From NCBI GenBank assembly GCA_017656425.1, contig JACDNV010000012.1, forward strand, positions 8,552-72,551: 64,000 bases of DNA, in the 5' to 3' direction. The position numbers and the translations under genes are program-made. Positions 24,507 to 42,512 of this stretch are shown in pieces. The stretch is from Candidatus Neomarinimicrobiota bacterium (lineage in GTDB: Bacteria; Fidelibacterota; UBA2242; B5-G15). Position 1 is the stretch's first letter. Each line of letters starts with the position of its first letter. The notes under the pieces are model-generated. The model was not told where the DNA came from. It saw only the letters and a program-made list of their open reading frames with translations, and ran no database searches.

Positions 24507-25739
24507 TCAGGTCTCCTCTGGTATTTCAATTACCTTACCTATAAACAGGATAGCTCCTGTTAGCTTTTCGTAAATTGCGAAGATAAAGGGTCTGTCAACA
24601 TTTATGTATATTAATTTCTCTTCACCTAATCTATAAAATTCAACGATTGTAGAGGCACTGGCTTCTGTTCCCTGTTCATTAACCTCAATGAAAGTGTTAT
24701 GAATTACCCTGCTTATCCAATAACCTGTTTTGCCAAATATTTTCGTAAAATCAGCTTTATAAAAGTCAAAACATATACCCATTCCGAGGTTTTTTAATGC
24801 GTCATTAAGGAGGGAATTATATTCCAATTTCATCCTTGGCATTTTTAACAATACCGAATCTTCTGGAATTTCGAGGTTATTAATGATTTCATTCCATTTT
24901 TCAATTGTAAAATTTTCCGAAAAGGTATTGATATCGGTCGAACAATCGGGCAGTATAATAATCATATAAAATTTTTCATCATTATATGGTAAACTTATTG
25001 CTGTGTACTGATCAGTAAGATTGATGGGGAACTTATTTTTTTGTGACATCATTTTACATTTTATAGCTTTATTGTTAATAGAAAAGAAATAACCTGGTTT
25101 AGTGTTTGATTCGTCAAATTCATATTTCCATATCCCTTTGTAATATAATGTATTAATTAAATACAAAACTGCAAGAGGTGGAATTCTGTCAAGGGCGTTC
25201 TTGATTGTGCCATGTGTGTTTTCATATATCCAGTTATTTATTGAATCTAATGAATTTGGATCATTAAAATCTATTTCCCTATACTCAGCGTGATAATATT
25301 CCTGACATAAGTTTACAAATGATTGTAATATTGGAACAGGTATATGCTTCCATATAGAATTAGCAATTTTAATTATAGTTTCGGTATCAAGATTTGAAAA
25401 GTAGTCTAAAAGGTTTTTAAATGCTATGTTAATTTCCTCATCGTTATAATTTTCGAAATCAAGTACCTTTCTCATTGAGTCTTTCGTAGCACCATTGGCT
25501 CCATTATATGCCATAGCTAGTGGGATAGCAACGCTGAGTGGGGAGATAATTACGTTAGAGTCTGGTGAATTTCTGGAAATTTCTCTGAAGAGTTTGAGTC
25601 CAAAAGTGTTAGCATTGTAGGCAATTGATATTTCATTTGTTGTGATTTTTATTGAAGGCTCCCCCGAGTTATCGTTTACTGTCTGACATGAGAAGATTAA
25701 AGATAATACGATACAGCTTATTAAAATTTTTGTTTTCAT
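24507..25739 (-). CDS. Serpin (serine protease inhibitor), lipoprotein
   Basis: 410 residues, a complete serpin. A lipoprotein signal (IVLSLIFSCQ) is followed by ISPLSVAIPLAMAYNGANGATKDSM, the shutter region, YLINTLYYKGIWKYEF, and the hinge of the reactive-centre loop VNEQGTEASAST with small residues as needed for loop insertion (inhibitory type). It closes with the signature VDRPFIFAIYEKLTGAILFIGKV. It probably protects the cell surface from proteases, its own or foreign. It lies immediately downstream of a decayed paralogue in the same orientation. Confidence 0.96.
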   Translation of the reverse strand: MKTKILISCIVLSLIFSCQTVNDNSGEPSIKITTNEISIAYNANTFGLKLFREISRNSPDSNVIISPLSVAIPLAMAYNGANGATKDSMRKVLDFENYNDEEINIAFKNLLDYFSNLDTETIIKIANSIWKHIPVPILQSFVNLCQEYYHAEYREIDFNDPNSLDSINNWIYENTHGTIKNALDRIPPLAVLYLINTLYYKGIWKYEFDESNTKPGYFFSINNKAIKCKMMSQKNKFPINLTDQYTAISLPYNDEKFYMIIILPDCSTDINTFSENFTIEKWNEIINNLEIPEDSVLLKMPRMKLEYNSLLNDALKNLGMGICFDFYKADFTKIFGKTGYWISRVIHNTFIEVNEQGTEASASTIVEFYRLGEEKLIYINVDRPFIFAIYEKLTGAILFIGKVIEIPEET

Positions 25740-25740
25740 T

Positions 25741-26871
25741 TTAATTTCCTCCTCTAATATTATGGCTTTTTTTAAATATTGATGTTCTTCTGGTTATTTC
25801 TACTATCTTTTCTGCAAATAGAATTGTTTTTGGGTTAATATCATAGGTAGCAAAAATAAATGGTCTATTAGTTTTAATGGTGAATATATCTAATCCACCA
25901 GGTAATTTAGCAGTGTGATGAATATATATAGCGATTGCAGTCAAAGCTTTAACACCTCACTTGTTAACATCGATGTAAGGTTTATGTACCTTTTTCAATA
26001 TAAGGCTATCTATCATAGGAAAGTTGGCTTTAAATAAATCGAGGGTAATTTCCATTTCCATCTCCTTTAGGATATTTTCCAAATATTACTATACCCGGTT
26101 TCAAATTTAAATTTCGGGACATAGAATGCTATGTTTTTTTTGTTCAATAGAGTTAAGAAAGCTTATCTGTGAGTCTGTAATCGGGTTATCAATAACTGAG
26201 TCTAATTTTATATCTATTTTATGAAGGATGATAGTCATGTCAAGTTATTCATTACCACAAGGAAGATTGATGGCTTAAATTTTATTGCCTTCATAATATA
26301 GAAATTCATTGTTCTGATACACCATCTCACAAGATTGAGTGATTCCACCAAATTTATGAAATTTATTTATTTTCATGGGTGCATCAGGGGAGGAGAAATC
26401 TAAATCTTCTACTTTAGCATTAAAATACTTTTTGCCTGTATTCTCGAAGTTCTTGAAGACATTAAATCCTATTTTATACCAGACTGAGTTTGCAATCGAA
26501 AGAGACACACTGTTATCCAGGTATATTAAGTAGTACATTAAATTTTTATATGATTGATTGATTTCATCAATTGATAGTTCACTAAATTTCAAAGTGTCCC
26601 TCATTGCTTTTTCTGTTTTATCGTTTGATTCATTATAGGTCATACCAAGAATATAGTAAATGCTTATTGGTGAAATAAAAATATTCTCTGAATTAATGCT
26701 ATTTGATATTTCTTTGAAAAGTTCTAATCTAGATTCGTTGGAATTTTCCGTCAGGTTGATTTCTTGAGGCGAGAGTTCTATGTTTTGATTTACAGGTTCA
26801 TCTGAAGCTTTATAAAATGACAGAGATATTATTAGTAATTGAAATATCACTATTAGGTATATCTTTTTCAT
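25741..26871 (-). pseudogene. Decayed serpin paralogue (deletion, frameshifts and premature stop)
   Basis: The 5' part (26871-26275) encodes a signal peptide and the N-terminal serpin half (FISPISIYYILGMTYNESND). It then jumps from a helix equivalent to INNWI directly to a segment equivalent to KCKMMSQKNKF, losing about 55 residues. Downstream, pieces in shifted frames match the intact neighbour: DMTIILHKIDIKLD, FYVPKFKFETGYSN, and DLFKANFPMI to VHKPYIDVNK. Here a TGA replaces the hinge Gln, and the frame then reads on to TNRPFIFATYD (to 25741). The copy cannot make a working inhibitor. It arose by tandem duplication, given its order and orientation. Confidence 0.9.
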
Positions 26872-28995: not shown

Positions 28996-30027
28996 ATGCT
29001 CGTAAAGATTAAAGACTTTTTTGCATTTTTATATCTATGCAAGGAGAAAAATATTCTGGATGTTACAAGTGTATTACTTCCTGCAAATTCGGGAAATGAT
29101 GAATTATTTTTAGATGAGCTTGCAAGCGATGGCGATTATATTATAGATTCATATAGACCTGTTGATCCTATAAAAGTTATCTTTTATCGAATAAGAGAGA
29201 GGATTTATCCTGAGGAGGAAGTAAAAGGCAAGAGGATAATTCTGGGTGTAAAGAATTGTGACCTGAAGGGACTACTATTGCTGGACAAAGCACTTATAAA
29301 TGATGATTTTGTTGATCCAGTTTATAAAGAATGGCGTGATAACACGATTATAATAACGAGCGATTGTTTGCAAATAACCGATACCTGTCATTGTAACCTT
29401 GTCGGGGGTAAGCCTTATTCAGAGGAAGGTTATGATATCAATTTATCGAGAGTAGGAGATAGCTACTTTTTAACTATTGGAAGTGGAATTGGTGAAAAGT
29501 TTGTAAATGAGATGAAAAAAGTGATAAAACCTGTCACATATAGTGATGAGATTTTGAAATTGATTGAAAGTAATAGAAAAAAAGTGATGAGTAAACTTGA
29601 GGAACAGAACAAAGAATTTGAAAGAAAACCTGATTATGATAAACTTGAGAAAGCTGATATAGAGACATGGATAGTAGAGTCTAAGGATTGTGTCGGATGT
29701 GGTGGTTGTAACAATATCTGTCCCACCTGCTATTGTATAATAATTAATGATGAATCTGATGATAAAGATTTCATAAAAGTAAGGTCTTATGACTCCTGTC
29801 AATTGACCGGTTATGCACGAGTTGCAGGAGGTGCAAATCCGAGACCGAAGATATATCAGCGTTTTAGAAATAGATATCTGTGCAAATTTCTTTATATGAA
29901 ATATAATTTTGATCTTTTAGGTTGTACAGGTTGCGGAAGATGTATAGATGTGTGTCCTGGAAATATAGAATTTAGAGGTGTTGTTAAAAGAATTATGGAA
30001 AAAGAATTAAGTACTCAGGAGGTATAG
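28996..30027 (+). CDS. HydB-like iron-sulfur subunit (sulfhydrogenase beta type) of hydrogenase complex
   Basis: 343 residues. The N-terminal half carries a conserved redox domain with GVKNCDLKGLLLLD, where HydB/AsrA proteins bind an Fe-S centre, and ITSDCLQITDTCHCN. The C-terminal half has two ferredoxin-like 4Fe-4S motifs: CVGCGGCNNICPTCYC (about 233) and CTGCGRCIDVCPG (about 315). In soluble sulfhydrogenases this subunit passes electrons between the flavin subunit and the hydrogenase. Here it is the first gene of a membrane hydrogenase operon, two bases before the HydG-like gene. It starts at an ATG after GGGGGTGG. Confidence 0.88.
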   Translation: MLVKIKDFFAFLYLCKEKNILDVTSVLLPANSGNDELFLDELASDGDYIIDSYRPVDPIKVIFYRIRERIYPEEEVKGKRIILGVKNCDLKGLLLLDKALINDDFVDPVYKEWRDNTIIITSDCLQITDTCHCNLVGGKPYSEEGYDINLSRVGDSYFLTIGSGIGEKFVNEMKKVIKPVTYSDEILKLIESNRKKVMSKLEEQNKEFERKPDYDKLEKADIETWIVESKDCVGCGGCNNICPTCYCIIINDESDDKDFIKVRSYDSCQLTGYARVAGGANPRPKIYQRFRNRYLCKFLYMKYNFDLLGCTGCGRCIDVCPGNIEFRGVVKRIMEKELSTQEV

Positions 30028-30029
30028 AT

Positions 30030-30857
30030 ATGCAGGCTAATAATCCATACAAAATAACTCGAGCAGAAGTTACAGATATAATAGAAGAATCTCCCACAAT
30101 AAAGACATTTCATCTAAAGCCAGAGGTTCCAATTCCATTCAAGACCGGGCAGTTCATTCAGTTCTCAGTAGCAGGGATAGGGGAAGCTCCATTTACGCCA
30201 TCCTCACCTCATCACATCAGTGAAGAGATGGATGTGACAATAATGAAGGCTGGTTTTGTTACCGAACATATCCACAATTTAAAAAAAGGTGATATAGTTG
30301 GTGTAAGGGGGCCATTTGGTACATGGTATCCTCTGGATAAATTTAAAGGGAAAGATATTTTAATAATGGGTGGTGGTGTAGGGATGGCGCCTACCAGATC
30401 ATTATTTCTTACTTTATTAAATGATTTAGAGAATTATAACAGTATTACATTTTTATGTGGAGCACGGTCTCCTGAAGATATGATTTATAAATATCAGATA
30501 GATGAATGGAGAAAACACAAAAATGTTAGGGTATTGAGAACTGTTGATAGAGTATCTGATGGACAAAGCTGGGATGAAGATGTTGGGCTTGTTACCAAGC
30601 TACTTGAAAAGATTGATATAGATCCAAAGGGCAATCCTGTGGTAGTTTGTGGACCCCCAATAATGATGAAATTTGCCACCATGGACCTTATAAGATACGG
30701 TTATACTCCCGATAATATTTATCTATCTATGGAAAAGAAAATGTATTGTGGTATAGGTCAGTGCAGGCATTGTGTAATGGGAAAATATTTTGTATGTAAA
30801 GATGGACCAGTTTTTACTTATGAAACGATAAAAAATGAGGAGAATATTTGGGAATGA
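30030..30857 (+). CDS. HydG-like FAD/NAD(P)-binding oxidoreductase subunit (sulfhydrogenase gamma type)
   Basis: 275 residues of the ferredoxin-NADP reductase/PyrK fold: a flavin domain (FKTGQFIQFSVAGIGEAPFTPSS), an NAD(P) domain (ILIMGGGVGMAPTRSLF, VVCGPPIMMKF), and a C-terminal four-Cys Fe-S site (CGIGQCRHCVMGKYFVC) as in HydG and PyrK. It should exchange electrons between NAD(P)H and the HydB-like subunit. Its position at the head of the Mbh-like operon argues that this hydrogenase is connected to the NAD(P)H pool. Confidence 0.92.
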   Translation: MQANNPYKITRAEVTDIIEESPTIKTFHLKPEVPIPFKTGQFIQFSVAGIGEAPFTPSSPHHISEEMDVTIMKAGFVTEHIHNLKKGDIVGVRGPFGTWYPLDKFKGKDILIMGGGVGMAPTRSLFLTLLNDLENYNSITFLCGARSPEDMIYKYQIDEWRKHKNVRVLRTVDRVSDGQSWDEDVGLVTKLLEKIDIDPKGNPVVVCGPPIMMKFATMDLIRYGYTPDNIYLSMEKKMYCGIGQCRHCVMGKYFVCKDGPVFTYETIKNEENIWE

Positions 30858-31357
30858 AGAGATTATTAATTGATATACCGAAGTTAATTGAATCAGGTAA
30901 ATCGGTAGAAGATATTAAATGTGAATATTTTTATCACAGAAAAAATCCGGGGCATTTTTCGTTACTCGAGGTGGCAGAATTTGCGGTGTATTGCAGACAG
31001 TGTAAAGAGGCTTTTTGTGTGCTTGCATGTCCAAAGGAGGCTTTAGAAAGAACGGAATATGGTTTGATAAAAAGATACAATATGCGATGTGTGGGTTGTA
31101 AAAGTTGTGTGCTTGCATGTCCTTTTGGAACAATATTCCCCGATGTCATTAATTACATTACTGCTAAGTGTGATTATTGTTTAAAACAGCTGGAAAAAGA
31201 TGCCGAATACCAACCTCTATGCGTAAAAACTTCTCCTGACGGTTCACTTCAGATGGTGGATATTGAGAAGGAAGATCCAGAAAATTACATTTTCTTTTAT
31301 GGAGAACATTTAGCGATCAAAAGCAGAAGTTGGCGACATAAGGAGGAAAAGGTATGA
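30854..31357 (+). CDS. Polyferredoxin-type electron-transfer subunit (HycB/CooF-like)
   Basis: 167 residues from the ATG at 30854 that overlaps the previous stop; a TTG at 30848 with GAGGAG five bases ahead is an alternative start. Cluster motifs: CRQCKEAFCVLACP, CVGCKSCVLACPFG, and a further CDYC with a later Cys (PLCVK), enough for three or perhaps four 4Fe-4S clusters. It probably bridges the HydBG-like pair and the membrane hydrogenase module. It overlaps the next gene by four bases (ATGA). Confidence 0.88.
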   Translation: MKRLLIDIPKLIESGKSVEDIKCEYFYHRKNPGHFSLLEVAEFAVYCRQCKEAFCVLACPKEALERTEYGLIKRYNMRCVGCKSCVLACPFGTIFPDVINYITAKCDYCLKQLEKDAEYQPLCVKTSPDGSLQMVDIEKEDPENYIFFYGEHLAIKSRSWRHKEEKV

Positions 31358-32280
31358 ACTGGTGGTATTTGTTTTATCTTCTTGTTTTCCCGGGTCTGAT
31401 TTTTACGGCGGTTGTAGGACTACTTGTCGGGTGGATTGATAGAAAAGTCTCTGCAAGAGTACAATTTCGTGTTGGACCTCCTTTATTTCAAAACTTTTAT
31501 GATTTTATAAAATTACTCGGAAAAGAAACGATAATAGTTAGGAATAGTTTAAAATCACTGTTTGTACTTTCACCTTTAATAGCGTTTGCAACGTTTGTTC
31601 TTGTTTCCACGATCGTAGGAGTACCATTATTCTTCGGTGAAAGTTTTTATGGTGATATATTTGTTGTTATGTATTTATTAATGATTTACTCTGTAATGGT
31701 AATACTCGGTGGAGCATCGACAGGGAATGTTTACTCAAGCCTTGGTGCTGGCAGAGAAATAAAGTTACTGCTAGCAGATGAGCTTTCATTCATTCTGGTA
31801 TGTCTTATCCCAATAATCAAATCGGGATATAAAATAAAATTAGAGGAAATAGTAATTGCACAGTCATCTGTTCCTTTTATTGCTTCTGTATCGGGTGTAA
31901 TTGCATTTATTTTTGGGATTTTGTGTATTCAAGCGAAAATGGTTTTACCTCCCTTTCATATACCAGAAGCTGAGACTGAAATTGTCGAGGGACCATTTAT
32001 AGAATACTCAGGTCCTCTTTTAGGTTTCTGGAAATTGAATCAGTTTATGATGTGGGTATTTTACCCTTTTTTGCTAATCCTATTATTTCTTGGGGGATAT
32101 AATTCTAATGGTTTAGGTCTTTTGTGGTTTATTTTAAAATATATCGGAATAGTGGTATTAATGATATTGATAAAAAATACCAATCCAAGAATTAGAATTG
32201 ATACTGCTATAAAATTTTTCTGGCGGCTTGCTACGCCGATCGTTTTTATTGGTGTTATACTCGCTATATATGGGGTTTAA
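31354..32280 (+). CDS. mbhM: Membrane subunit MbhM/NuoH-like of group 4 [NiFe] hydrogenase
   Basis: 308 residues with about eight membrane helices. It shows the complex I subunit 1 signature: GWIDRKVSARVQFRVGPPLFQ near the N-terminus and the FHIPEAETEIVEGPFIEYSG loop. This subunit links the hydrogenase module to the antiporter-like arm. A strong AAGGAGG precedes the ATG. Confidence 0.93.
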   Translation: MNWWYLFYLLVFPGLIFTAVVGLLVGWIDRKVSARVQFRVGPPLFQNFYDFIKLLGKETIIVRNSLKSLFVLSPLIAFATFVLVSTIVGVPLFFGESFYGDIFVVMYLLMIYSVMVILGGASTGNVYSSLGAGREIKLLLADELSFILVCLIPIIKSGYKIKLEEIVIAQSSVPFIASVSGVIAFIFGILCIQAKMVLPPFHIPEAETEIVEGPFIEYSGPLLGFWKLNQFMMWVFYPFLLILLFLGGYNSNGLGLLWFILKYIGIVVLMILIKNTNPRIRIDTAIKFFWRLATPIVFIGVILAIYGV

Positions 32281-32283
32281 AAA

Positions 32284-32703
32284 ATGAGTTGGTATACAAA
32301 AAAATTAGCAAAATCCATATGGGTGTTTCATGTAAGTGCATCACCCTGTAATAATTGCGATATTGAAATACTTAGTTTGTTGACTCCGAAGTATGATGTT
32401 GAAAGGTTTGGTATAAAATTGGTAGGTTCCGTCAGACATGCCGATGCACTTCTTGTAACGGGTATAATGAATAAAAAAGTCGCTCCAAGAGTTAAGTATA
32501 TTTATGAGCAAGCTCCAAAACCTGTTTTTGTTATTGGAGTTGGAAGCTGTCCAGCGTCAGGTATCATGTTCAGAGACAGTTATAATTTCCCTGCCCAAGA
32601 AATGGAAGAAATTCCTTTTAATGTATATATACCGGGCTGTCCACCAAAACCAGAAGCTATGCTTGAAGGTATTGTAAAACTATTGGAGGCACTTAATGGG
32701 TAA
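32284..32703 (+). CDS. mbhJ: Small subunit MbhJ/NuoB-like of group 4 [NiFe] hydrogenase
   Basis: 139 residues. It contains the proximal-cluster ligands: SPCNNCDIEIL (two Cys), GVGSCPASGIMF and YIPGCPPKPEAMLEGI. Short like other group 4 small subunits, with no extra cluster domain. It passes electrons to or from the NiFe site in MbhL. Confidence 0.95.
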   Translation: MSWYTKKLAKSIWVFHVSASPCNNCDIEILSLLTPKYDVERFGIKLVGSVRHADALLVTGIMNKKVAPRVKYIYEQAPKPVFVIGVGSCPASGIMFRDSYNFPAQEMEEIPFNVYIPGCPPKPEAMLEGIVKLLEALNG

Positions 32704-33130
32704 AGATATTTATGAAGAATTTAAAGCAAAGTTTGGTGATATTATCCATGTAAGAAGAGAGAAAAGTAATCGATTGTACTTCTTTGTCCCTGAAAAGAAT
32801 TTGCGTTCGGTAGTTAAATATATTTTTAATGAAATTGGTTGTAGGCTGTCAACTGCTACAGCTCTTGAACGTCCTGATGGTTTTGAAGTTATTTACCATT
32901 TTTCACATGATAAAACAGGCAAGTACTTTTGTCCAACGGTTTTTATTTCAAATAAAGACCAGCCTTCTATGAATTCCATTACTCCAATTGTAAAAGGTGC
33001 TGAATGGATTGAGAGAGAAATAATGGAAATGTTTGGAATACGGTTTAAAGGACATCCGAGGCCTGAGAAATTGCTTATGCTCAATAATCCTGGTAATTTG
33101 GACAGGCCATTAAGAATAGGAGGAAAGTGA
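32696..33130 (+). CDS. mbhK: MbhK/NuoC-like 30-kDa-type subunit
   Basis: 144 residues with the complex I 30-kDa signature: GAEWIEREIMEMFGIRFKGHP, where complex I has the same ERExxDxFG block. A structural subunit at the interface with MbhL. It overlaps the preceding gene by eight bases and the following one by one to four. Confidence 0.93.
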   Translation: MGKDIYEEFKAKFGDIIHVRREKSNRLYFFVPEKNLRSVVKYIFNEIGCRLSTATALERPDGFEVIYHFSHDKTGKYFCPTVFISNKDQPSMNSITPIVKGAEWIEREIMEMFGIRFKGHPRPEKLLMLNNPGNLDRPLRIGGK

Positions 33131-34305
33131 TGGAACGAGTTATTCCCGTTGGACCTTTTCACCCGTTGCTTGAGGAAGCAGAATTTTTTACTTTGAAGGT
33201 TGATGGAGAGTATGTTGTCGATATAGATATCGAGATAGGTTGGTTGCATCGTGGTCATGAATTTATATCTGAACAAAAGACCTTTACTCAATCAATATAT
33301 CTTGTGGAAAGAATTTGTGGAATTTGCTCCACTTCCCATCCCATTGCGTTTGTGCATGCAGTTGAGGATGTAGCAGATATTGAAGTTCCTGTAAGAGCAA
33401 AAATAATTCGTACCTTAATTGGTGAGCTGGAAAGAATCCACAGTCATCTTCTATGGATAGGGCTTGCTGGTCATTTTATAGGATATGATACTGTATGGAT
33501 GTGGGCGTGGAAATACAGGGAGCCAGTGCTTCAAATGTTTGAAATTATATCAGGAAATAGAAATCACTATGGTATGATGAGGATTGGTGGAGTAGGAAAA
33601 GATGTGGAGCCTGATTCCATTAGTGATCTTGAAAAAATATTAAGTAGTATAGAGAAAAAAATGTATATGTTTGCAAAAGTTGTAAAGGATGATCCTGTAT
33701 TAAAATCAAGGTTAAAAGGTGTGGGTGTATTGAAAAAGGAAGATGCAATAGCATATTGTGCTGTTGGTCCAACGGCTCGTGCCTCAGGAGTTGCGATTGA
33801 TGTTCGAAAAGACGAACCTAGGGATGCTTATGATATGGTAAATTTTAATATTATTGTTTTAGAAAATGGTGATGTGTATGATAAATTTGTCGCAAGAGTA
33901 TTGGAAGTTATTGAATCAGCTAAAATCTGTAAACAATGCCTTAAGCTTTTAAGAAAGGAGAAGGGTCCTGTTTTAAACAATGTCAAAGAGATACCACCTG
34001 GTGAAGGAATTGGAAGATATGAAGCGCCTCGTGGAGAGGTGCTTCACTATGTCCGAACTGACGGTTCAAATAGAGCTGTTAGACACAAAGTTAGAGCACC
34101 GAGTTATGCAAATATCCCTACTTGCAAAGCTAGCTGCATAGGGATTCCTGTGGCTGATGCCTTAATTACCACTGCATCTATAGATCCATGTTATTGTTGC
34201 ACCGAGAGGTCTGTAAAGATTGTGGATGAGAAGAATAGAGAGTTGCATTTGGATTTATTAAAATTATCATGGGAGAAAACAGAGCGAATTCGGAGGGGAT
34301 TATAA
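33130..34305 (+). CDS. mbhL: Catalytic large subunit of group 4 [NiFe] hydrogenase (MbhL-like)
   Basis: 391 residues from the ATG at 33130 (a GTG three bases upstream is in frame). Both nickel-binding CxxC pairs are present: Cys63 and Cys66 in RICGICSTSH, and Cys354 and Cys357 in DPCYCCTER. That makes it a real hydrogenase and not an NuoD or an MbxL-type subunit with missing ligands. A 31-residue tail after TER is the expected peptide removed at maturation, and a fitting protease is encoded at 40723. It makes or oxidises H2 at the cytoplasmic side. Confidence 0.95.
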   Translation: MERVIPVGPFHPLLEEAEFFTLKVDGEYVVDIDIEIGWLHRGHEFISEQKTFTQSIYLVERICGICSTSHPIAFVHAVEDVADIEVPVRAKIIRTLIGELERIHSHLLWIGLAGHFIGYDTVWMWAWKYREPVLQMFEIISGNRNHYGMMRIGGVGKDVEPDSISDLEKILSSIEKKMYMFAKVVKDDPVLKSRLKGVGVLKKEDAIAYCAVGPTARASGVAIDVRKDEPRDAYDMVNFNIIVLENGDVYDKFVARVLEVIESAKICKQCLKLLRKEKGPVLNNVKEIPPGEGIGRYEAPRGEVLHYVRTDGSNRAVRHKVRAPSYANIPTCKASCIGIPVADALITTASIDPCYCCTERSVKIVDEKNRELHLDLLKLSWEKTERIRRGL

Positions 34306-36123
34306 ATGCAATTTAATGAGCTCAGCTTATTAGTATTAATACCATTTTTGATAGGTCTGGTGAATATATTTATACCTGTATTTCTTAGAAAGTTATTAAC
34401 TCTTGCGTGTATGATATATCTAATGGTTTTAACTATTGGAATTTTTGGAAATGAAAATATAACTGTTAGATTGATGAACATTGATTTACTGCGTGTGGAC
34501 AGGCTTGCCTATCTTTCGTTGATATTCATTCAGATACTGGGTTTAATCATTTTAATTTTTAGTCTTACAGGTGTGGAAGGTGTAATAGAAAAGAGATTTT
34601 TTATTTTATTTCCCCTTACTGTATCTTTTTCTAACGGAGCAGTTTTGAGTATAAATGGATTGTCTTTTATAATTTTTTGGGGTCTATCCGGGGTAGTACT
34701 TTATCTTTTTGCATTACTTGGTACAAAAAGCGGAGCGCCATCCTCGGCAAAAAAGACGTTTATGATTGTTGGCGCAAGCGATTCAGTTTTGATTCTTGGA
34801 TTTTTGTTGTTATGGTTTTTGGAACCGTCGAGCTGGATGAAGCTATGGGATATTAAAATGGAACTTGCAGGTGAGCTTGCCTATCTCTCATTTCTATGCT
34901 TGATGATTGCCTCATTCACAAAGGCAGGAGGATTTCCCTTTCATACATGGGTACCGGATTATTGTACAGATTCACCGATTGAGAGTTCTGCACTTTTACC
35001 AGCGAGTATTGATAAACTATTGGGTATTTACCTCCTTGCCAGAATGGTGTTGAATTTATTTATAATGAATACAGCTATGTCATTACTTTTGATGACTCTC
35101 GGTGCAATTACTATTATTGTAGCTGTAATGATGGCGATGATTCAGCATGATGGGAGAAGACTGCTAAGTTATCATGCAGTGAGTCAGGTAGGATATATGA
35201 TACTTGGTGTAGGTAGTGGTAGTATATTGGGTTTTGTAGGGGGCTTATTCCATACAATTAATAACTCTTTATATAAATCTGGATTATTTCTCTCATTGGG
35301 AGCAGTTGAAAAAAGAACTGGGACGAGTGATCTGGACAAGCTCGGAGGCATCGGGAGAAATATGCCGATAATATTTATTTCAGCACTTTTTTGCTCTTTT
35401 GCAATCTCAGGTATACCACCTTTCAATGGGTTCTTTTCAAAATGGATGATTTATCAGGGAATTATTGAGATGAGCTCAATATCTGTGTCTGGTTATCAGA
35501 TATGGTTACTAATTTTGCTTATTATGGCAGTATTCGGTAGTGCTTTGACACTGGCAAGCTTTATGAAATTTCTACATTCAGTATTCCTAGGTGTCCGACC
35601 AAAGGCATATGAAAAGATTAGAGAAGCTAGTTTAAATCAATGGATAGCTACCCTTACAATCGCACTTATATGTTTAGCTTTTGGTATATTTGCTAATCAA
35701 CTGCCCATTAGATATTTATTTCTACCTATTCTTGAGAAAACAGGTATTCGATCGCCGAATTATATTGGCCTATATAATCCCATTTTTCTTACGATATTGT
35801 TTTTAATTCCATTTTTGATTGGTTTTATAATATTTTTAGTTGTGAAAAATGTACGGCTGGATGATGTATATCTTGGCGGTATGAAACCATCTGAAAAGTT
35901 CAGAATAATTGGTACTGAATTTTACAATGAAATAAGAAGAATGCAGCCTCTTAAGAGTCTGTATGACTGGGCGGAGAGGAAATACTTTGATATATATGAT
36001 CTTGGGAAAAAGATTTCATTTTCTATCACAAAACTATTGAAATCTATTCATTCAGGACAATTACAACTATATAGCTTATGGATTATGATTGGGTTGTTAA
36101 TTCTTTTGTACATTGTTTCTTAA
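34306..36123 (+). CDS. First antiporter-like membrane subunit (NuoL/MrpD/MbxH'-like)
   Basis: 605 residues, about 15 membrane helices. Core motifs of the proton/sodium-conducting family: FTKAGGFPFHTWVPDYCTDSP and ALLPASIDKLLGIY, with the conserved Lys residues, and LLSYHAVSQVGYM. It is about 110 residues longer than the second antiporter subunit at 37471; the extra C-terminus has a long amphipathic stretch ending in a membrane helix, as in NuoL-type lateral arms. It starts right after the mbhL stop, an unusual place compared with archaeal mbh operons. Confidence 0.92.
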   Translation: MQFNELSLLVLIPFLIGLVNIFIPVFLRKLLTLACMIYLMVLTIGIFGNENITVRLMNIDLLRVDRLAYLSLIFIQILGLIILIFSLTGVEGVIEKRFFILFPLTVSFSNGAVLSINGLSFIIFWGLSGVVLYLFALLGTKSGAPSSAKKTFMIVGASDSVLILGFLLLWFLEPSSWMKLWDIKMELAGELAYLSFLCLMIASFTKAGGFPFHTWVPDYCTDSPIESSALLPASIDKLLGIYLLARMVLNLFIMNTAMSLLLMTLGAITIIVAVMMAMIQHDGRRLLSYHAVSQVGYMILGVGSGSILGFVGGLFHTINNSLYKSGLFLSLGAVEKRTGTSDLDKLGGIGRNMPIIFISALFCSFAISGIPPFNGFFSKWMIYQGIIEMSSISVSGYQIWLLILLIMAVFGSALTLASFMKFLHSVFLGVRPKAYEKIREASLNQWIATLTIALICLAFGIFANQLPIRYLFLPILEKTGIRSPNYIGLYNPIFLTILFLIPFLIGFIIFLVVKNVRLDDVYLGGMKPSEKFRIIGTEFYNEIRRMQPLKSLYDWAERKYFDIYDLGKKISFSITKLLKSIHSGQLQLYSLWIMIGLLILLYIVS

Positions 36124-36139
36124 AATTTTGGGGGTGTAA

Positions 36140-36688
36140 ATGCCTGTAGAAACTTGGCTATTATTCTTATTATCCTATATGATAATTGGATCGATTGTAG
36201 CTCTGGAGCTAAAGAATATTCTTGCTTCTATTGTTTCAATCGGAATAGTTGGTCTTGGTGTATCGGTGGCATTTCTAATGCTTCAGGCTCCTGATCTTGC
36301 TATTGTTCAGTTTTTATTTGAGATATTCGCACTTATTATTCTGGTAAGAGCTTTTTCGAAAAAGGAATACCATGAAGAAAGAGCTCAAAGAGTAACAGGA
36401 GTGATGTTGGCTTTTACAATTATAGTTTTACTGGCAGTTCTGGCTTCAAGTGTTCCAATTTTTAAAGCACTTCCACCATTTGGTGAGCCTATAATGGGGA
36501 TTGCGAAATACTATATAGAAAATGGTGCGGCACAGACTGGTTCAGCCAATGTTGTAACATCCATAATTCTTGATTATAGAGCCTATGACACACTGGGTGA
36601 GGTAACAGTGTTATTTACAGCAATACTTGGCGCATTAACCATTTTGAAGGTTCGTTCGAAGAAAGAAGAAGAGGAAGAAAATGAATAA
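36140..36688 (+). CDS. Fused MbhD-MbhE-like Mrp antiporter subunit
   Basis: 182 residues. The first half matches MbhD (DUF4040, the C-terminal part of MrpA): ALELKNILASIVSIGIVGLG and LQAPDLAIVQFLFE. The second half matches MbhE: YRAYDTLGEVTVLFTAILGALTIL. In archaeal Mbh these are separate genes. About five membrane helices and an acidic C-terminus (KKEEEEENE). Overlaps mbhF by eight bases. Confidence 0.85.
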   Translation: MPVETWLLFLLSYMIIGSIVALELKNILASIVSIGIVGLGVSVAFLMLQAPDLAIVQFLFEIFALIILVRAFSKKEYHEERAQRVTGVMLAFTIIVLLAVLASSVPIFKALPPFGEPIMGIAKYYIENGAAQTGSANVVTSIILDYRAYDTLGEVTVLFTAILGALTILKVRSKKEEEEENE

Positions 36689-37130
36689 TAAAGAGGGAAT
36701 GACCTTAATTGTTAAAACTGTGGCAAGAATAAGTGTATGGCTTATTATTCTATATGGAATATATATTGTTTTACATGGTCATCTAACTCCGGGAGGTGGA
36801 TTTGCAGGTGGTGTGATAATATCTCTGGCGTTTTTAAATTTCATGCTGGCTTATGGAAGGAATAATACATCAAAATGGCTTAATATAAGTCTTTTAAGTG
36901 ATATTGAAGCTTCCAGCGCTTCGCTTATACTGGCACTTGGAATTATGGGGATGGCCTTCGGAGGTGGATTTTTAGCAAATTTCATCACAAAGGGGAAGCT
37001 ATTCCATCTTTTAAGCGCAGGTACAATTCCAATTTATAATATATTAATTGGTGCTAAAGTTGGAATGGCACTGTTTGTTGTTGTATGGACACTTGCAATT
37101 ACAAGAATTGGTGAGGAGGTAGAGGGATGA
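36681..37130 (+). CDS. mbhF: Mrp antiporter subunit MrpB/MbhF
   Basis: 149 residues, four membrane helices. MnhB-domain signature YIVLHGHLTPGGGFAGGVIISLAFL. Part of the sodium/proton-translocating module. Overlaps both neighbours by a few bases. Confidence 0.93.
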   Translation: MNNKEGMTLIVKTVARISVWLIILYGIYIVLHGHLTPGGGFAGGVIISLAFLNFMLAYGRNNTSKWLNISLLSDIEASSASLILALGIMGMAFGGGFLANFITKGKLFHLLSAGTIPIYNILIGAKVGMALFVVVWTLAITRIGEEVEG

Positions 37131-37474
37131 TTTCCTATTTAATATATGTTCTTTGTTTTGCTCTATTTCTTGTCGGAGTGTATGGAATTTTAACGAAAAG
37201 AGATCTTATAAAAATTATATTAGCTACTGGTATAATGGGTTATTCAGCAAATCTATTTCTTATTCTGTTTGCATATAAGAAGGGTGCTCTTTATCCTATA
37301 TTGTCAAAAGGAGAGGAAGTCAAGGCAATGGTTGATCCTTTACCTCAGGCACTTGTTCTAACATCAATAGTTATAGAGCTTGGTATCACAGCGATGCTTG
37401 TAGCTCTTGCTATTAAATTATATGAGAGGTATAAGACATTTGATATTACTAAAATTAGGAGGCTTTCAGGATGA
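37127..37474 (+). CDS. mbhG: Mrp antiporter subunit MrpC/MbhG (NuoK-like)
   Basis: 115 residues, three membrane helices, with GVYGILTKRDLIKIILATGIMGYSANLFLI and the conserved PLPQALVLTSIVIELG block in which a membrane glutamate is kept. Small NuoK-type subunit next to the antiporter subunit. Confidence 0.93.
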   Translation: MISYLIYVLCFALFLVGVYGILTKRDLIKIILATGIMGYSANLFLILFAYKKGALYPILSKGEEVKAMVDPLPQALVLTSIVIELGITAMLVALAIKLYERYKTFDITKIRRLSG

Positions 37475-38952
37475 TCCTCCCGTTTTTCATCATTATTCCG
37501 TTGTTAGCAGCGTTTCTAATAACGCTAGTCTCTGGTAAGAAAGATAACTGGGCTATAATATTATCCATACTTGCTGAGCTTTCTGTACTGGTGCTGGCAG
37601 TTTTTTGCTATGTATATCAGATCGATGATATATTTGTTTATAATATGAGTGGCTGGAAGATTCCCTTTACTATTTGCCTTGTTCAGGATGCCCTCTCGTG
37701 TTTTATGATTATGGTCGTAAGTATAATAGCGCTTACCAGCCTAATATATTCGGTTACCTATATAAGGCATCTGGTTTCTTCCTGGAGGTATTATGCACTG
37801 TTTATGCTTCTTGTTACTGGAATGAATGGTGTAATATTGACTGGTGATTTATTCAATCTCTTTGTATTTATGGAAATCGCTCTATTCTCTGCTTATGCAC
37901 TTGTTTCCTATGGCAGAAAAGCGGAGGAATTTGAAGCAGCTTTTAAATATGCTATAATGGGTTCTATATCATCATCACTTATCCTTATTGGTATAGCGAT
38001 AACGTATAGTTACACATCTTCGTTAACCATGGCAACAATTGCTGAAAGCTTAAAGAATAAACCAGCAGGGGTGACCTTCTGGCTGGGTAGTCTATTCTTA
38101 GCGGGGTTTGGACTTAAGTCAGCAATGGTGCCTTTTCATGCATGGCTCCCCGATGCCCATTCATCAGCGCCCGCTCCAATCTCGTCAATGCTGTCCGGTG
38201 TATTGATAAAGTCACTTGGTATTTATACAATTATAAGAATATTTTATAATGTTTTTGGTGCCCCTGAGCTTTTTAAAACTCTATTTTTAGTTTTTGGAAT
38301 ATTATCCATAGTTATTGCCTCTTTTCTAGCAATTGGTCAATGGGATATCAAGAGATTGCTAGCATATAGTAGTATAAGCCAGATTGGTTTTATACTTGTC
38401 GGATTGGGAGTTGGAAATTTTTATGGTATACTCGGTGCTATATTTCATCTTTTAAGCCATGCTATATTTAAGTCATTGTTGTTTTACAATACAGGTGCAA
38501 TAGAGATGGCAATTGGAACAAGAGATATGAGAGATATGGGGGATTTAAGGAAAGCTCTACCAGTTACATCGTTCACGTCTATGGTTGGTAGTCTTGCAAT
38601 AATGGGAATGCCCCCTTTTAATGGATTTTTCAGTAAGTTTTTCATAATAATGGGATTATTGCAAGCAAAGATGTATATAGTGGCATTATTAGTTGTGCTC
38701 GGCAGTATCTTAACTATTGCCTATTTTGTCAAATTTCAGAGATATGGATTCAGGGGAAAAAATGTGATAGAGAAAGAGATGGTTGCAGAACCTATTGGTT
38801 CGGGAATGAAATTTTCAATGGCATTCCTTGCTTTACTATGTCTTGTAACTAGCTTGATGTTAATACCAGGGCTAAGAGAGACAACATTAGATCCAGTTAT
38901 AAATGTTATTCTTGATAAAACGGGTTATATTAAATCTGTACTTGGGAGGTAA
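37471..38952 (+). CDS. mbhH: Second antiporter-like membrane subunit MrpD/MbhH
   Basis: 493 residues, about 14 membrane helices. It keeps the key antiporter residues: FVFMEIALFSAYALVSYG (Glu in helix 5), GFGLKSAMVPFHAWLPDAHSSAP (Lys), and LLAYSSISQIGFI. In sequence it lies between MbhG and MbhA, the same place as mbhH in archaeal operons, so it is the orthologue; the 605-residue subunit at 34306 is the extra copy. Confidence 0.93.
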   Translation: MILPFFIIIPLLAAFLITLVSGKKDNWAIILSILAELSVLVLAVFCYVYQIDDIFVYNMSGWKIPFTICLVQDALSCFMIMVVSIIALTSLIYSVTYIRHLVSSWRYYALFMLLVTGMNGVILTGDLFNLFVFMEIALFSAYALVSYGRKAEEFEAAFKYAIMGSISSSLILIGIAITYSYTSSLTMATIAESLKNKPAGVTFWLGSLFLAGFGLKSAMVPFHAWLPDAHSSAPAPISSMLSGVLIKSLGIYTIIRIFYNVFGAPELFKTLFLVFGILSIVIASFLAIGQWDIKRLLAYSSISQIGFILVGLGVGNFYGILGAIFHLLSHAIFKSLLFYNTGAIEMAIGTRDMRDMGDLRKALPVTSFTSMVGSLAIMGMPPFNGFFSKFFIIMGLLQAKMYIVALLVVLGSILTIAYFVKFQRYGFRGKNVIEKEMVAEPIGSGMKFSMAFLALLCLVTSLMLIPGLRETTLDPVINVILDKTGYIKSVLGR

Positions 38953-38955
38953 AAG

Positions 38956-39462
38956 ATGAGCATAAAGTTAAAAAGTAGGATAGTTGTATTTATACTCTCG
39001 TTTTTAGTCTGGGTTGCTCTTACAAGTATAAGAGATTTACAGGAGGTAGTAGCGGGAATATTTATAGCTTTAATAGTGAGCTTACTCGCTGGTGGATTCT
39101 TTATTCAGGAGAAAAGTAGAGGACGTCTTTTAAAAAGAATTTTTTATGGAGTAATATATATATTCAAATTTCTATGGGAAATGTTCAAAGCAAATTTACA
39201 TGTTGCGTATATTGTAATTAATCCGAAACTACCAATAAAACCAGGTATTGTTAAAATAAAATCTAAGCTTTCAAAAGATACAGGACTTACAGCGCTTTCG
39301 AATTCGATTACATTGACTCCGGGTACGCTAACGGTTGATATTAATAAAGAAAAGGGGGAGCTATATATTCACTGGATTGATGTTGCTTCTCCAGATGTGG
39401 ATGAAGCAACAAAAGAAATAGGTGGTAGATTTGAAAAAATACTGCTGGAGGTGTTTGAATGA
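38956..39462 (+). CDS. mbhA: Mrp antiporter subunit MrpE/MbhA
   Basis: 168 residues, MNHE domain: two or three membrane helices, then VIYIFKFLWEMFKANLHVAYIV and TALSNSITLTPGTLTVDINKE, the hallmark of MrpE. Ends with a cytoplasmic domain. Confidence 0.93.
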   Translation: MSIKLKSRIVVFILSFLVWVALTSIRDLQEVVAGIFIALIVSLLAGGFFIQEKSRGRLLKRIFYGVIYIFKFLWEMFKANLHVAYIVINPKLPIKPGIVKIKSKLSKDTGLTALSNSITLTPGTLTVDINKEKGELYIHWIDVASPDVDEATKEIGGRFEKILLEVFE

Positions 39463-39797
39463 AATATCTTAGATGGTTTTTGGGACTTATTTTTATAGCT
39501 ACATTTTTATATTTTAATTTCTTTATATATCAGGCTGATATAATACCGAAATTGATAAATGTGATTTTATTCAGTGCCCTTTTTGTGCTCTTCAGAGTTA
39601 TTTTCGGGCCTTCGCCAGCAGATAGAATAGTTGCCGTTGATATCCTTGGGATTCTAATCATAGGCATGCTTGCACTATTTGGCTTATTTTATGAAAAATC
39701 ATTCTTTATGGATATTGGTTTAATCTGGGCACTTTTAAGTTTTATAGCTTCTCTGGCTTTTGCAAAGATACTTGAGGGGAGGCAGCTTGATGATTAG
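39459..39797 (+). CDS. mbhB: Mrp antiporter subunit MrpF/MbhB
   Basis: 112 residues, three membrane helices, with the MrpF signature FRVIFGPSPADRIVAVDILG followed by a membrane segment containing acidic residues. Overlaps MrpE by four bases. Confidence 0.93.
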   Translation: MKYLRWFLGLIFIATFLYFNFFIYQADIIPKLINVILFSALFVLFRVIFGPSPADRIVAVDILGILIIGMLALFGLFYEKSFFMDIGLIWALLSFIASLAFAKILEGRQLDD

Positions 39798-40131
39798 AGA
39801 GATAATTGGGCTAATTTTTATAATCATAGGTGTAACATTTGATTTTCTCGGTGTATTAGGGCTTGTAAGATTACCTGACGTGTATAATCGATTACAGGCA
39901 GCGACTAAATGTGTCACTTTTGGTTCAGCAGGTGTTTTATTTGGAGTATTTATATTACAGGGATTTAATAGCTTTGGTTTTAAGGCTCTTATAGGAATTA
40001 TATTTATATTTCTAACATCACCTGTAGCCGCACATGCAATTTCCAGAGCATCTCACAGGAGTGGAATTCCATTAACCAAAGAAACAGTTGTAGATAAATA
40101 TCAGGAAGATCACGAGTTGAGGGAAGAGTAA
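39790..40131 (+). CDS. mbhC: Mrp antiporter subunit MrpG/MbhC
   Basis: 113 residues from the ATG at 39790, which overlaps the mrpF stop and has GGGGAGG upstream; an in-frame TTG at 39760 is less likely. MrpG signature: GLVRLPDVYNRLQAATKCVTFG and a third helix ending TSPVAAHAISRASHRSG. Completes the Mrp set. Confidence 0.92.
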   Translation: MIREIIGLIFIIIGVTFDFLGVLGLVRLPDVYNRLQAATKCVTFGSAGVLFGVFILQGFNSFGFKALIGIIFIFLTSPVAAHAISRASHRSGIPLTKETVVDKYQEDHELREE

Positions 40132-40733
40132 TGTATGCACCAAAATTAAGAGAATTAGTGGAAGCTCTGAGGTCTTTATTTTCAAGACCATATACGACGC
40201 GTTTCCCGAAGGGAAAATATGAACCTGTGAAGGAATATAGAGGTTTCCCCCAATTTTTTGAGGAAGATTGTGTAGGCTGTGGTACCTGCTATCAGGTTTG
40301 TCCTGCTGGAGCAATAGAGATGAACGATGACATTAAAAAAGGAGTTAGGGTTTTAAAAATTGATTATAGTTCCTGTATCCAGTGTGGTCAATGTGAAGAA
40401 CACTGTATTACAGAGAGGGGGATTAGAATTACCACAAAATATTCTGTCCCAATTTTTAGTCTATCAGAAGATAATTATTTTAATGTCATAGAGAAAAAAC
40501 TTGTTAAGTGTGAAATTTGTGGAAAGAGTTTTGCCTGTGAAGACCATTTGCATTTTATAAGAAAAAGATTGGGAGCAAAATCATATGCTCATCCAAATCT
40601 TTTGATTGGATTACAGAAAAAATTGGGAAGTATCCCTGAAGCAAAATATAAGGGGAGAATCAGAAGAGAAGACTACATAAAAGAGGTATGCCCTATCTGT
40701 CGTCACAAGATTGTTGTAGAGGATGAATTTTAA
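40131..40733 (+). CDS. mbhN: MbhN/NuoI-like 2x[4Fe-4S] subunit with extra C-terminal Cys pairs
   Basis: 200 residues. Two cluster motifs, CVGCGTCYQVCPAGA (about 46) and CIQCGQCEEHCITE (about 82), connect the electron-input side to the MbhJ small subunit. The C-terminal 80 residues hold CEICGKSFAC and CPICRHKI, a possible zinc- or iron-binding knuckle that is longer than in ordinary MbhN. Starts one base inside the mrpG stop codon. Confidence 0.9.
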   Translation: MYAPKLRELVEALRSLFSRPYTTRFPKGKYEPVKEYRGFPQFFEEDCVGCGTCYQVCPAGAIEMNDDIKKGVRVLKIDYSSCIQCGQCEEHCITERGIRITTKYSVPIFSLSEDNYFNVIEKKLVKCEICGKSFACEDHLHFIRKRLGAKSYAHPNLLIGLQKKLGSIPEAKYKGRIRREDYIKEVCPICRHKIVVEDEF

Positions 40734-41184
40734 AGAATTATTCAGTATAATTGAAAATGGTGGATACAAAAAGATATTGATAATTGGAATTGGGAATGAA
40801 CTTAGGGGAGACGACAGAGCAGGACTGATATTAGCTGAAAAGGTTTTTGAGAACCTAAGCATTTTTATCCCAACAATAAAAAAGATAATTGCAGGTACAA
40901 ATCCAGAAAACTATATTGAGAAAATGATAAAATTCTCACCTGAATTGATAATAATTTTCGATTCATCCGATTTCGGTGCTGAGCCAGGGACGGTTCAATT
41001 ATTTAGAAGAGAAGATATAAGTAATAACTCAATAAGCACTCATGCTTATAGCATAGGTATAATTGAAGATTATATAAAAAGGTCTATAAATTCTGATGTG
41101 TTTTATGTTTTAATACAGAAGAAAAATACTGAATTTGGCAGGAAAATATCACGAGAAGTTCTAAAAGGCATTGAGGAATTCTAA
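40723..41184 (+). CDS. Hydrogenase maturation endopeptidase (HycI/HyaD family, peptidase A31)
   Basis: 153 residues. GIGNELRGDDRAGLILAEKV near the N-terminus carries the Asp that reads the nickel, and AGTNPENYIEKM and IIIFDSSDFGAEPG follow as in HycI. It cuts the C-terminal tail of the large subunit once nickel is in place. Its presence in the operon supports an active NiFe centre in the product of 33130-34305. Overlaps mbhN by 11 bases. Confidence 0.93.
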   Translation: MNFKELFSIIENGGYKKILIIGIGNELRGDDRAGLILAEKVFENLSIFIPTIKKIIAGTNPENYIEKMIKFSPELIIIFDSSDFGAEPGTVQLFRREDISNNSISTHAYSIGIIEDYIKRSINSDVFYVLIQKKNTEFGRKISREVLKGIEEF

Positions 41185-41186
41185 AA

Positions 41187-42512
41187 TTGGAAAATTCGAA
41201 TTCACTTTTTCCCTTCTATACAGTTAAGTCTTTAAGACACAGGATAGGCTGGATTATTAATCTTCGCTGGTTAGCGGTTTTTGCAATAATGACCGCCATT
41301 CCAATTGCCAGATATCTCTTTCGATTTGAAATTGATTATGAGAATATATATTTTATTTCCACCTTACTATTGGTTTTAAATATAATATACTTTTTCTTCT
41401 ATAGATACTATCCTTTTACATCTTTTAGTCAGGAGGTTGTCTTTACAGAAATACAAATACTGCTGGATTTTGTAATTATTTCCTTTTTAATTCATTTTTC
41501 TGGCGGAATAGAAAATCCATTCTATTTTCTATATATAGTGAACATAATTTTGTCCGGTATACTTTTAAAGGGGATATTGCCATTTATCAATACTATATTT
41601 GCCTCTTTACTTTTAACTATGTGGACAATTCTCGAATATCTTGAAAAGGTCGATGTATACAACCTCTGGGAAAATGAACCAGATTTATCATATGTTATAG
41701 TATCCCTTGTGGCTTTTTATTTCCTTGCCTTTGCTTCAACATTACTTATTGTCGATTTTATGAAAAGGTACAGAAAACTTAAATCGATCATTGATGATAA
41801 ATCGAGTCAACTAGAAGAAACAATAAATGAAAGAGACAAAATTTTCAGGTTTACTGCCCATGAATTGAAATCCCCCATTACTACTCTGAAAAGTACGCTA
41901 TCTGTATTAAATAAAGTTTATTCAGAAAAAATTGATAAGGAGGCGAGAGATCTTCTTGATCGAGCTGAAAATCGAGTTGATCAGATACTGGATATGGTAA
42001 AGGATATGATTGAGATAACAAGGTACAAAAGACCAGAAGAAGAGGTTGTAAAACTTGAAGAGGTGGATTTTTGCAACTGGATTAATTCAATTCTTGAATC
42101 TCAAAAGATAGACGCAAAAAATAAAGGTATTGAGCTTAAAATTGGTCCAATCTCATGTGCAAGGATAGTTATAGATACTAATAGTTTAAGTAAAATCGCA
42201 ATTAATCTTGTAAACAACTCAATTAGATATACCAACCCAGGCGGTAAAGTAACTGTAACGCCTTTTGTTAATAATAAAGAATATGGTGTCATAGTTGAAG
42301 ATACTGGTATCGGAATACCTGAAAATGAGATCGATAAGATTTTCAATGAATTTTACAGAGGTAAAAACGCAAAAGAAATGGAACGATTGGGAACTGGACT
42401 GGGATTGTCTCTTGTAAAGCAAATTGTTGATAGATTGGGTGGGAATATTAGGGTAGAAAGCAAAGTAGGAGTTGGTAGTAAATTCATTGTTACATTACCT
42501 TTTGCTGAATAG
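41187..42512 (+). CDS. RegB/PrrB-like membrane sensor histidine kinase with GGxxNPF quinone motif
   Basis: 441 residues from a TTG start with GAGGAA eight bases upstream. Six membrane helices (20-190) include GGIENPF at 106-112, matching the GGxxNPF ubiquinone-binding heptapeptide of RegB. The cytoplasmic part has HisKA (His225 in FTAHELKSP) and HATPase (VEDTGIGIPENEIDKIF, GTGLGLSLV). It starts two bases after the protease gene, so it belongs to the hydrogenase operon. No response regulator lies next to it. A redox- or quinone-sensing role in hydrogenase control is inference from motif and place. Confidence 0.88.
   Translation: MENSNSLFPFYTVKSLRHRIGWIINLRWLAVFAIMTAIPIARYLFRFEIDYENIYFISTLLLVLNIIYFFFYRYYPFTSFSQEVVFTEIQILLDFVIISFLIHFSGGIENPFYFLYIVNIILSGILLKGILPFINTIFASLLLTMWTILEYLEKVDVYNLWENEPDLSYVIVSLVAFYFLAFASTLLIVDFMKRYRKLKSIIDDKSSQLEETINERDKIFRFTAHELKSPITTLKSTLSVLNKVYSEKIDKEARDLLDRAENRVDQILDMVKDMIEITRYKRPEEEVVKLEEVDFCNWINSILESQKIDAKNKGIELKIGPISCARIVIDTNSLSKIAINLVNNSIRYTNPGGKVTVTPFVNNKEYGVIVEDTGIGIPENEIDKIFNEFYRGKNAKEMERLGTGLGLSLVKQIVDRLGGNIRVESKVGVGSKFIVTLPFAE

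Follow-up and report, generated by a model that had tools for sequence, protein, structure and literature searches.

In 2019, a genome study described a group 4 [NiFe] hydrogenase from Saganbacteria RX5A as “enigmatic”; its authors suggested an oxidoreductase module and an Mbh-like function for the enzyme, and pointed to relatives in Zixibacteria and Omnitrophica (Matheus Carnevali et al., PMC6349859). Here, we analyze an operon at positions 28996–41184 of the forward strand of a 64,000-nucleotide stretch (hereafter called “the window”) from a Candidatus Neomarinimicrobiota bacterium, in which a HydB–HydG–ferredoxin (Fd) module adjoins a membrane-bound [NiFe] hydrogenase and an Mrp-type arm. 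The Saganbacteria RX5A region likewise brings together hydrogenase subunits, Mrp-like subunits, cooF, asrA, and asrB; it also contains a molybdopterin oxidoreductase, a gene that the window operon does not have. Conservation, electron wiring, and HycF-type features are not analyzed in the text of that paper. The parts and this one instance are already known. The new elements are the conservation of the module across a clade, a complete and conserved cofactor wire, an N subunit of the HycF type with a HycB-docking extension, and a host that has probably been cultured.

Pyrococcus furiosus MBH (6cfw) resembles the operon in its catalytic NiFe core, MbhH-type antiporter, and Mrp-type subunits, but it has one antiporter-like subunit, no HydBG–Fd arm, a short MbhN, and another gene order. 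Group 4d is marked by a single antiporter-like subunit and a short MbhN, and the operon has neither. P. furiosus MBS (6u8y) has two antiporter-like subunits, as does the operon, whose second one (Hx) matches MbsH′ (6u8y_X) along its whole length; however, MBS has no NiFe site, and Hx lacks the glutamate equivalent to MbsH′ E128. P. furiosus sulfhydrogenase 1 (9nez), of group 3b, contains homologous HydB and HydG, but it is soluble, has other large and small subunits, and lacks an ion pump. Group 3b enzymes combine HydBG with the HydA/HydD catalytic subunits, whereas the core of our operon is of the Mbh type, and a true 3b set is encoded elsewhere in the genome. Escherichia coli formate hydrogenlyase-1 (FHL-1; 7z0s) shares the ferredoxin, HycB-like by profile, the HycF-like N subunit with its C-terminal metal site, and the group 4 NiFe core. 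In contrast to FHL-1, the electron source here would be HydG–HydB rather than FdhF, an Mrp arm is present, and the ferredoxin is predicted to hold three clusters instead of four; no formate dehydrogenase subunit gene was found in the operon or among the window open reading frames (ORFs) that we read. Finally, HydDB presents group 4g as a loose cluster with unknown function and putative coupling to ferredoxin (PMC5037454), and the definition of this group does not include the HydBG module, which the window operon has.

The operon most likely encodes a hydrogenase of the group 4g type in which the NAD(P)H arm is an integral part. We propose, with a probability of roughly 0.6, that its products form one membrane complex, an NAD(P)H:H+ oxidoreductase that is wired directly, as in FHL, and that couples electron transfer to the movement of ions. 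The operon comprises 17 same-strand ORFs, nearly all abutting or overlapping, which are given below with the kinase gene that follows them.

28996–30027, +, HydB/AsrA-like iron-sulfur subunit, 343 aa (profile and structure-database match)
30030–30857, +, HydG/AsrB-like subunit binding FAD, NAD(P)H, and [2Fe-2S], 275 aa (profile, nearest structure, ortholog alignment)
30848–31357, +, Fd, HycB/DmsB/CooF-like ferredoxin, 169 aa (profile, ortholog alignment)
31354–32280, +, MbhM, NuoH-like membrane anchor (profile)
32284–32703, +, MbhJ, NuoB-like small subunit with four invariant Cys for the proximal [4Fe-4S] cluster (profile, orthologs)
32696–33130, +, MbhK, NuoC-like (profile)
33127–34305, +, MbhL, catalytic [NiFe] large subunit with both CxxC motifs intact (profile, tree)
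34306–36123, +, Hx, second antiporter-like subunit, 605 aa, in the MrpA-N position (match to MbsH′)
36140–36688, +, MbhDE fusion, the C-terminal part of MrpA (profile)
36681–37130, +, MbhF (MrpB; profile)
37127–37474, +, MbhG (MrpC; profile)
37471–38952, +, MbhH (MrpD), antiporter subunit (profile, ortholog alignment)
38956–39462, +, MbhA (MrpE; profile)
39459–39797, +, MbhB (MrpF; profile)
39790–40131, +, MbhC (MrpG; profile)
40131–40733, +, N, NuoI-like ferredoxin with two [4Fe-4S] clusters and a HycF-type C-terminal extension carrying a CxxC...CPxC metal site (sequence, predicted structure)
40723–41184, +, HycI/HyaD-type hydrogenase maturation protease (profile)
41187–42512, +, sensor histidine kinase, associated and possibly regulatory (profile, neighborhood counts)

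The names of all 17 genes agree with family profile searches. An earlier annotation made from the letters of the window (the “sequence-only reading”) had placed the same genes at these coordinates, nearly all overlapping and with mbhD and mbhE fused; our analyses concur, and DE matches MbhD plus MbhE by profile. A chance grouping is excluded, because the same cassette recurs in the same order in dozens of genomes.

We scanned one genome per species with the window MbhL and its top matches, and obtained at least 80 loci with 58–88% identity to the window MbhL; more distant group 4g enzymes lie outside this sample. The gene order at these relatives was mapped with the window’s own proteins. The closest named relative by MbhL, among the matches listed, is a Neomarinimicrobiota metagenome-assembled genome (MAG) from Guaymas (88%). 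HydB, HydG, and Fd directly precede M-J-K-L in 50 of the 52 loci with at least 5.5 kb of upstream sequence, and Hx-DE-F-G-H-A-B-C-N is present in 47 of the 49 loci with enough downstream sequence. The cassette spans about 15–19 phylum-level labels, with the reservation that MAGs may be mislabelled: Neomarinimicrobiota, Ignavibacteria, KSB1, Aminicenantes, Cloacimonadota, Thermotogota, Aerophobetes, Desantisbacteria, Calescamantes, Caldisericota, Latescibacterota, WOR-3, Omnitrophota, Auribacterota, Elusimicrobiota, Kiritimatiellota, Chitinispirillaceae, and Clostridia-labelled bins are included. We rejected the idea that it is unique to the window genome, since it is widespread across related genomes. 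Among the Thermotogota, 5 of 101 sampled genomes have the cassette. Two of the Thermotogota genomes are single contigs (2,302,126 and 2,169,170 bp) and carry the full cassette with hypF alongside, and in one case hypD as well; they are probably Kosmotoga (presumably K. olearia and K. pacifica). We found no open-access paper on a Kosmotoga enzyme of this type, although subscription journals may hold an earlier description.

The module is also coherent at finer scale. Fd and mbhM overlap with a median spacing of −4 bp over 69 loci, and the HydB–HydG and HydG–Fd junctions are equally tight. When pairwise distances are compared, HydB, HydG, and Fd show correlations of 0.84–0.93 with the core, values of a kind that host kinship inflates; the divergence of HydG correlates at 0.92 with MbhL and at 0.93 with N. 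Tight spacing and tracked divergence are what co-inherited, co-translated partners show. This adjacency and the parallel divergence of module and core support the proposal of the sequence-only reading that the machine is a hybrid into which NAD(P)H feeds through a module of its own.

The hydrogenase core belongs to group 4: it has a NuoD-like large subunit with four NiFe cysteines, NuoB/C/H/I-like partners, and a membrane anchor. The nearest solved structure to MbhL is P. furiosus MbhL (6cfw_L, E 2e-81), and all four NiFe-ligand cysteines are kept (RICGIC, DPCYCC). These cysteines are present in every cassette MbhL and absent from the relatives at 35% found in the same phylum and beside one Celaenobacter locus (L064). 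The loss of NiFe cysteines that marks the MBS/Ehr non-hydrogenases is not seen here, as the motifs are intact. In a maximum-likelihood tree of 93 MbhL-type sequences, in which the references are few and on long branches, the window MbhL lies inside an 84-row clade (support 98/99) that contains every cassette locus and leaves out P. furiosus MbhL, E. coli HycE, and Thermus Nqo4; the exact placement of the long-branched P. furiosus MbhL (group 4d) outside this clade is unsure. Within it, a 51-row subclade (100/99) unites Thermotogota, Cloacimonadota, and the Neomarinimicrobiota–Ignavibacteria–KSB1 group of the window. The window’s clade includes Ca. Saelkia (L098, MAG 3300035698_749) and Ca. Celaenobacter (L064, MAG 3300025698_8), both from Ace Lake and reported as group 4g, which in the Saelkia MAG is the single identifiable hydrogenase (PMC8542988). 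We assign the window MbhL to group 4g by this clustering, with the label taken from the published MAG reports. Its placement in a known clade that always carries HydBG-like genes of proven function had been named as an outcome that would speak against the hybrid machine; the clade does nearly always carry HydBG, but it is not one of proven function.

Next, we consider the path of the electrons, for which the conservation of cofactor ligands was scored over 52–77 orthologs per subunit. The nearest solved structures to HydB and HydG are the beta and gamma subunits of P. furiosus sulfhydrogenase 1 (E 7e-40 and 2e-56, respectively). In HydB, 15 cysteines are invariant in 61 orthologs (C88, C124, C131, C133, two ferredoxin-type motifs, and extra cysteines), and C296 is kept in 50 of the 61; this set would leave room for 3–4 [4Fe-4S] clusters. 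In HydG, the GGGxGxAP motif, D173, and the [2Fe-2S] ligands C240/C245/C248/C256 are invariant in 66 orthologs. Fd belongs by profile to the HycB/DmsB/CooF family, and has exactly 12 cysteines that are invariant in 68 orthologs, fitting three [4Fe-4S] clusters, not four. HycB-type proteins usually carry four. Since the N-terminal cysteine triplet and the fourth cysteine of the last motif are missing together while C25 remains, the motif logic suggests that Fd lost exactly one cluster. N retains its eight cluster cysteines plus C127, C130, C187, and C190 (C190 in 50/52), and MbhJ its four. Therefore, from the conserved ligands in HydB, HydG, Fd, N, and MbhJ, the wire from FAD to NiFe is complete.

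D173 of HydG is aspartate in all 66 orthologs, and P. furiosus sulfhydrogenase 1, which is NADPH-dependent, has threonine at the same site. We regard a preference for NADH as weakly argued by this residue, because aspartate also occupies the site in HydG of the genome’s own soluble group 3b enzyme. Separately, residues 52–58 of the cassette HydG share an E[A/G]PFTPS motif (F55 in 66/66, T56 in 65/66) where group 3b HydG has PIS, a difference that can serve as a signature of the cassette NAD(P)H arm.

How would the NAD(P)H arm connect to the hydrogenase? N matches HycF over residues 22–142 (E 2e-15), and MbhN over residues 9–93 only; over the extension, the best sequence match is HycF. The AlphaFold model of N (mean confidence, pLDDT, 84) aligns with HycF at VIA Z 15.9 (160 residues, root-mean-square deviation (rmsd) 5.4) and 15.4 (131 residues, rmsd 2.0), compared with 9.6 for the next best structure and 9.4 for MbhN, and Foldseek concurs (E 4e-12). 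The subunit previously named MbhN is thus present, but it is of the HycF type and not of the MbhN type. The extension of E. coli HycF contacts HycB and carries a CxxC...CPxC metal site (PMC9474812); the same quartet is conserved in the N orthologs. By this analogy, N and Fd look like the HycF–HycB pair of a directly wired enzyme, and the ferredoxin-facing side of N would be covered. It is mainly because of the HycF-type extension with its metal site that we prefer direct wiring over a freely docking ferredoxin.

In the membrane arm, DE-F-G-H-A-B-C correspond by profile to the C-terminal part of MrpA and to MrpB, C, D, E, F, and G. Because Hx occupies the MrpA-N position, the series Hx-DE-F-G-H-A-B-C reproduces canonical mrpABCDEFG, except that MrpA is divided in two, which explains the departure from the archaeal mbh order that had been pointed out from the sequence. 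The two antiporter-like subunits then anticipated are MbhH and Hx. MbhH has E135, K216, K247, and K389 in all 54 orthologs. Hx, the expected 605-aa antiporter subunit, retains K206, K237, and K379 (67/67) and H316 (65/67), but not the conserved antiporter glutamate: the residue of transmembrane helix 5, equivalent to E128 in MbsH′ (PMC7684303), is glycine in 60 of 67 orthologs, with the nearby D159 kept in 65. The number of H+-pumping subunits is one in P. furiosus MBH and two in MBS (PMC7684303). The predicted complex joins an arm with two antiporter-like subunits, one of them degenerate, to a live NiFe site.

The proposed enzyme would follow the formate hydrogenlyase plan, with the formate dehydrogenase arm swapped for an NAD(P)H dehydrogenase arm. 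Electrons from NAD(P)H would enter FAD and then [2Fe-2S] in HydG, pass through the [4Fe-4S] clusters of HydB and the three clusters of Fd, and continue over the two clusters of N and the one of MbhJ to the [NiFe] site of MbhL, where H+ would be reduced to H2, or H2 oxidized. This redox reaction would be coupled via MbhM to the full Mrp-type arm; ion flow would help to push NAD(P)H electrons onto protons, or energy would be harvested when H2 reduces NAD(P)+. The carbon monoxide dehydrogenase–CooF–Mbh–Mrp enzyme of T. onnurineus is a proven case in which modules were exchanged on a core of this kind (PMC4731540).

Confurcation, in which NAD(P)H and ferredoxin jointly feed the hydrogenase, had been raised by the sequence-only reading, and we found nothing in its support: the operon has a single predicted flavin, in a HydG fold with one cluster exit, and no second flavin subunit, and the HycF-like extension suggests that Fd covers N. 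The ferredoxin-type subunits do offer possible docking sites, a 2-oxoacid:ferredoxin oxidoreductase is encoded downstream, and the related P. furiosus Mbh uses ferredoxin; nevertheless, we consider this alternative unlikely. Slightly less likely still is a ferredoxin-driven Mbh with HydBG as a loose side module that exchanges electrons with NAD(P)H for redox balance. HydDB’s putative ferredoxin coupling (PMC5037454), the same assumption by the Ace Lake authors (PMC8542988), and two loci without HydBG favor it, but a dispensable add-on would hardly be kept next to the hydrogenase almost without exception, over very deep divergence and with invariant ligands. That HydB–HydG act as a sulfur (polysulfide) or sulfite reductase-like pair with a second acceptor, as in sulfhydrogenase or MBS, is very improbable: despite their resemblance to AsrA/AsrB and sulfhydrogenase subunits and the MBS-like membrane arm, the operon has no AsrC-type catalytic subunit, the ligands for clusters and nucleotide resemble those of an electron-transfer chain, and the NiFe site that MBS lacks is intact.

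Several points weigh against the directly wired, ion-coupled enzyme that we favor. HydBG is not strictly essential, because two Cloacimonadota loci (L058, L064) keep Fd and the hydrogenase without it. The predicted structure of Fd is weak (pLDDT 68), and that model does not confirm the HycB fold. The window genome encodes a complete soluble group 3b HydB-HydG-HydD-HydA with hyp genes (L108, G000:C1:78000-97000; 27% identity in HydB and 38% in HydG to the operon’s subunits), which can perform the NAD(P)H/H2 reaction. By standard potentials, H2 formation from NAD(P)H is favorable only while H2 stays low; since the reaction otherwise lies near or above equilibrium, net ion pumping from NAD(P)H alone would be energetically weak. 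Ion coupling would widen the H2 range of NAD(P)H oxidation or, in reverse, conserve energy from H2. In addition, we found no assay of a cassette-type enzyme in the literature.

Other arrangements of these modules were seen among the relatives. In Celaenobacter (L145, also without HydBG), a second complex-I-like cluster with Mrp genes and no NiFe cysteines lies just upstream of Fd, and its N subunit is fused to a GltD/NfnB-like flavoprotein (619 aa); L058 has a similar second M-J-K-L-N set. These second clusters look like a different NAD(P)H coupling solution. In Aminicenantes (L141, G066:C15:8000-27000), HydB-HydG stand beside a Hyf-like group 4 NiFe hydrogenase with 45% MbhL identity and intact NiFe motifs, and no full Mrp set was detected nearby; judging from this locus, hydrogenases may have acquired the HydBG arm on at least two occasions.

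The window genome (2.80 Mb, 99.7% complete) encodes Rnf as well as F-type and V-type ATP synthases (L147, L148; G000:C3, C8); no [FeFe] hydrogenase was found in it. By eye, the V-type c subunit has Q/E residues resembling those of Na+-binding rings, and the F-type c subunit does not. Another locus (L110, G000:C25:3000-17000) encodes NuoE-NuoF and a 678-aa protein that seems to join a ferredoxin domain of the NuoG type to a GltD-like one. Two glutamate dehydrogenases are encoded next to them, and by eye the locus resembles a Stn-type bifurcating transhydrogenase. We rejected the cassette as a substitute for [FeFe] hydrogenase, as 21 of 36 cassette genomes have both. Linkage to Rnf is uninformative, with Rnf/Nqr in 35 of 36 cassette genomes and also in 23 of 28 same-phylum genomes, nearly all cassette-free.

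Around the operon, the 5′ neighbor is divergent, and the sensor kinase (2 bp gap), an aminotransferase, and the 2-oxoacid:ferredoxin oxidoreductase follow on the 3′ side. Almost the entire kinase aligns with the ActS/PrrB/RegB redox-sensor model. Of 36 testable loci, 15 have the same kinase next to the operon, and all 15 belong to the Neomarinimicrobiota–Ignavibacteria–KSB1 part of the tree. Promoter and terminator scans gave results at or near chance level. At 24507–26871 (−), inspection by eye shows a full-length serpin-like protein (410 aa) and, after it, shorter serpin-like pieces of 67 and 198 aa that may be what is left of a duplicate.

Metagenome papers use the group 4g label to infer ferredoxin-driven H2 production. 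If the HydBG–Fd arm is integral, such inferences change, and in many candidate phyla an ion-coupled hydrogenase would itself reoxidize NAD(P)H. Thanks to the complete Thermotogota genomes, probably of Kosmotoga, this can be tested in an organism available in culture. We suggest tentatively, at odds below even, that the cassette represents a widespread class of ion-pumping NAD(P)H:H+ oxidoreductases. Among hydrogenases, they would be the equivalent of complex I and would combine an FHL-type wire, an NAD(P)H input arm of non-NuoEFG origin, and a two-antiporter arm, which would allow gradient-driven, NAD(P)H-dependent H2 release or energy conservation from H2. The union of an active NiFe site, two antiporter-like subunits, and an NAD(P)H arm in one complex would be relevant to how complex I was assembled.

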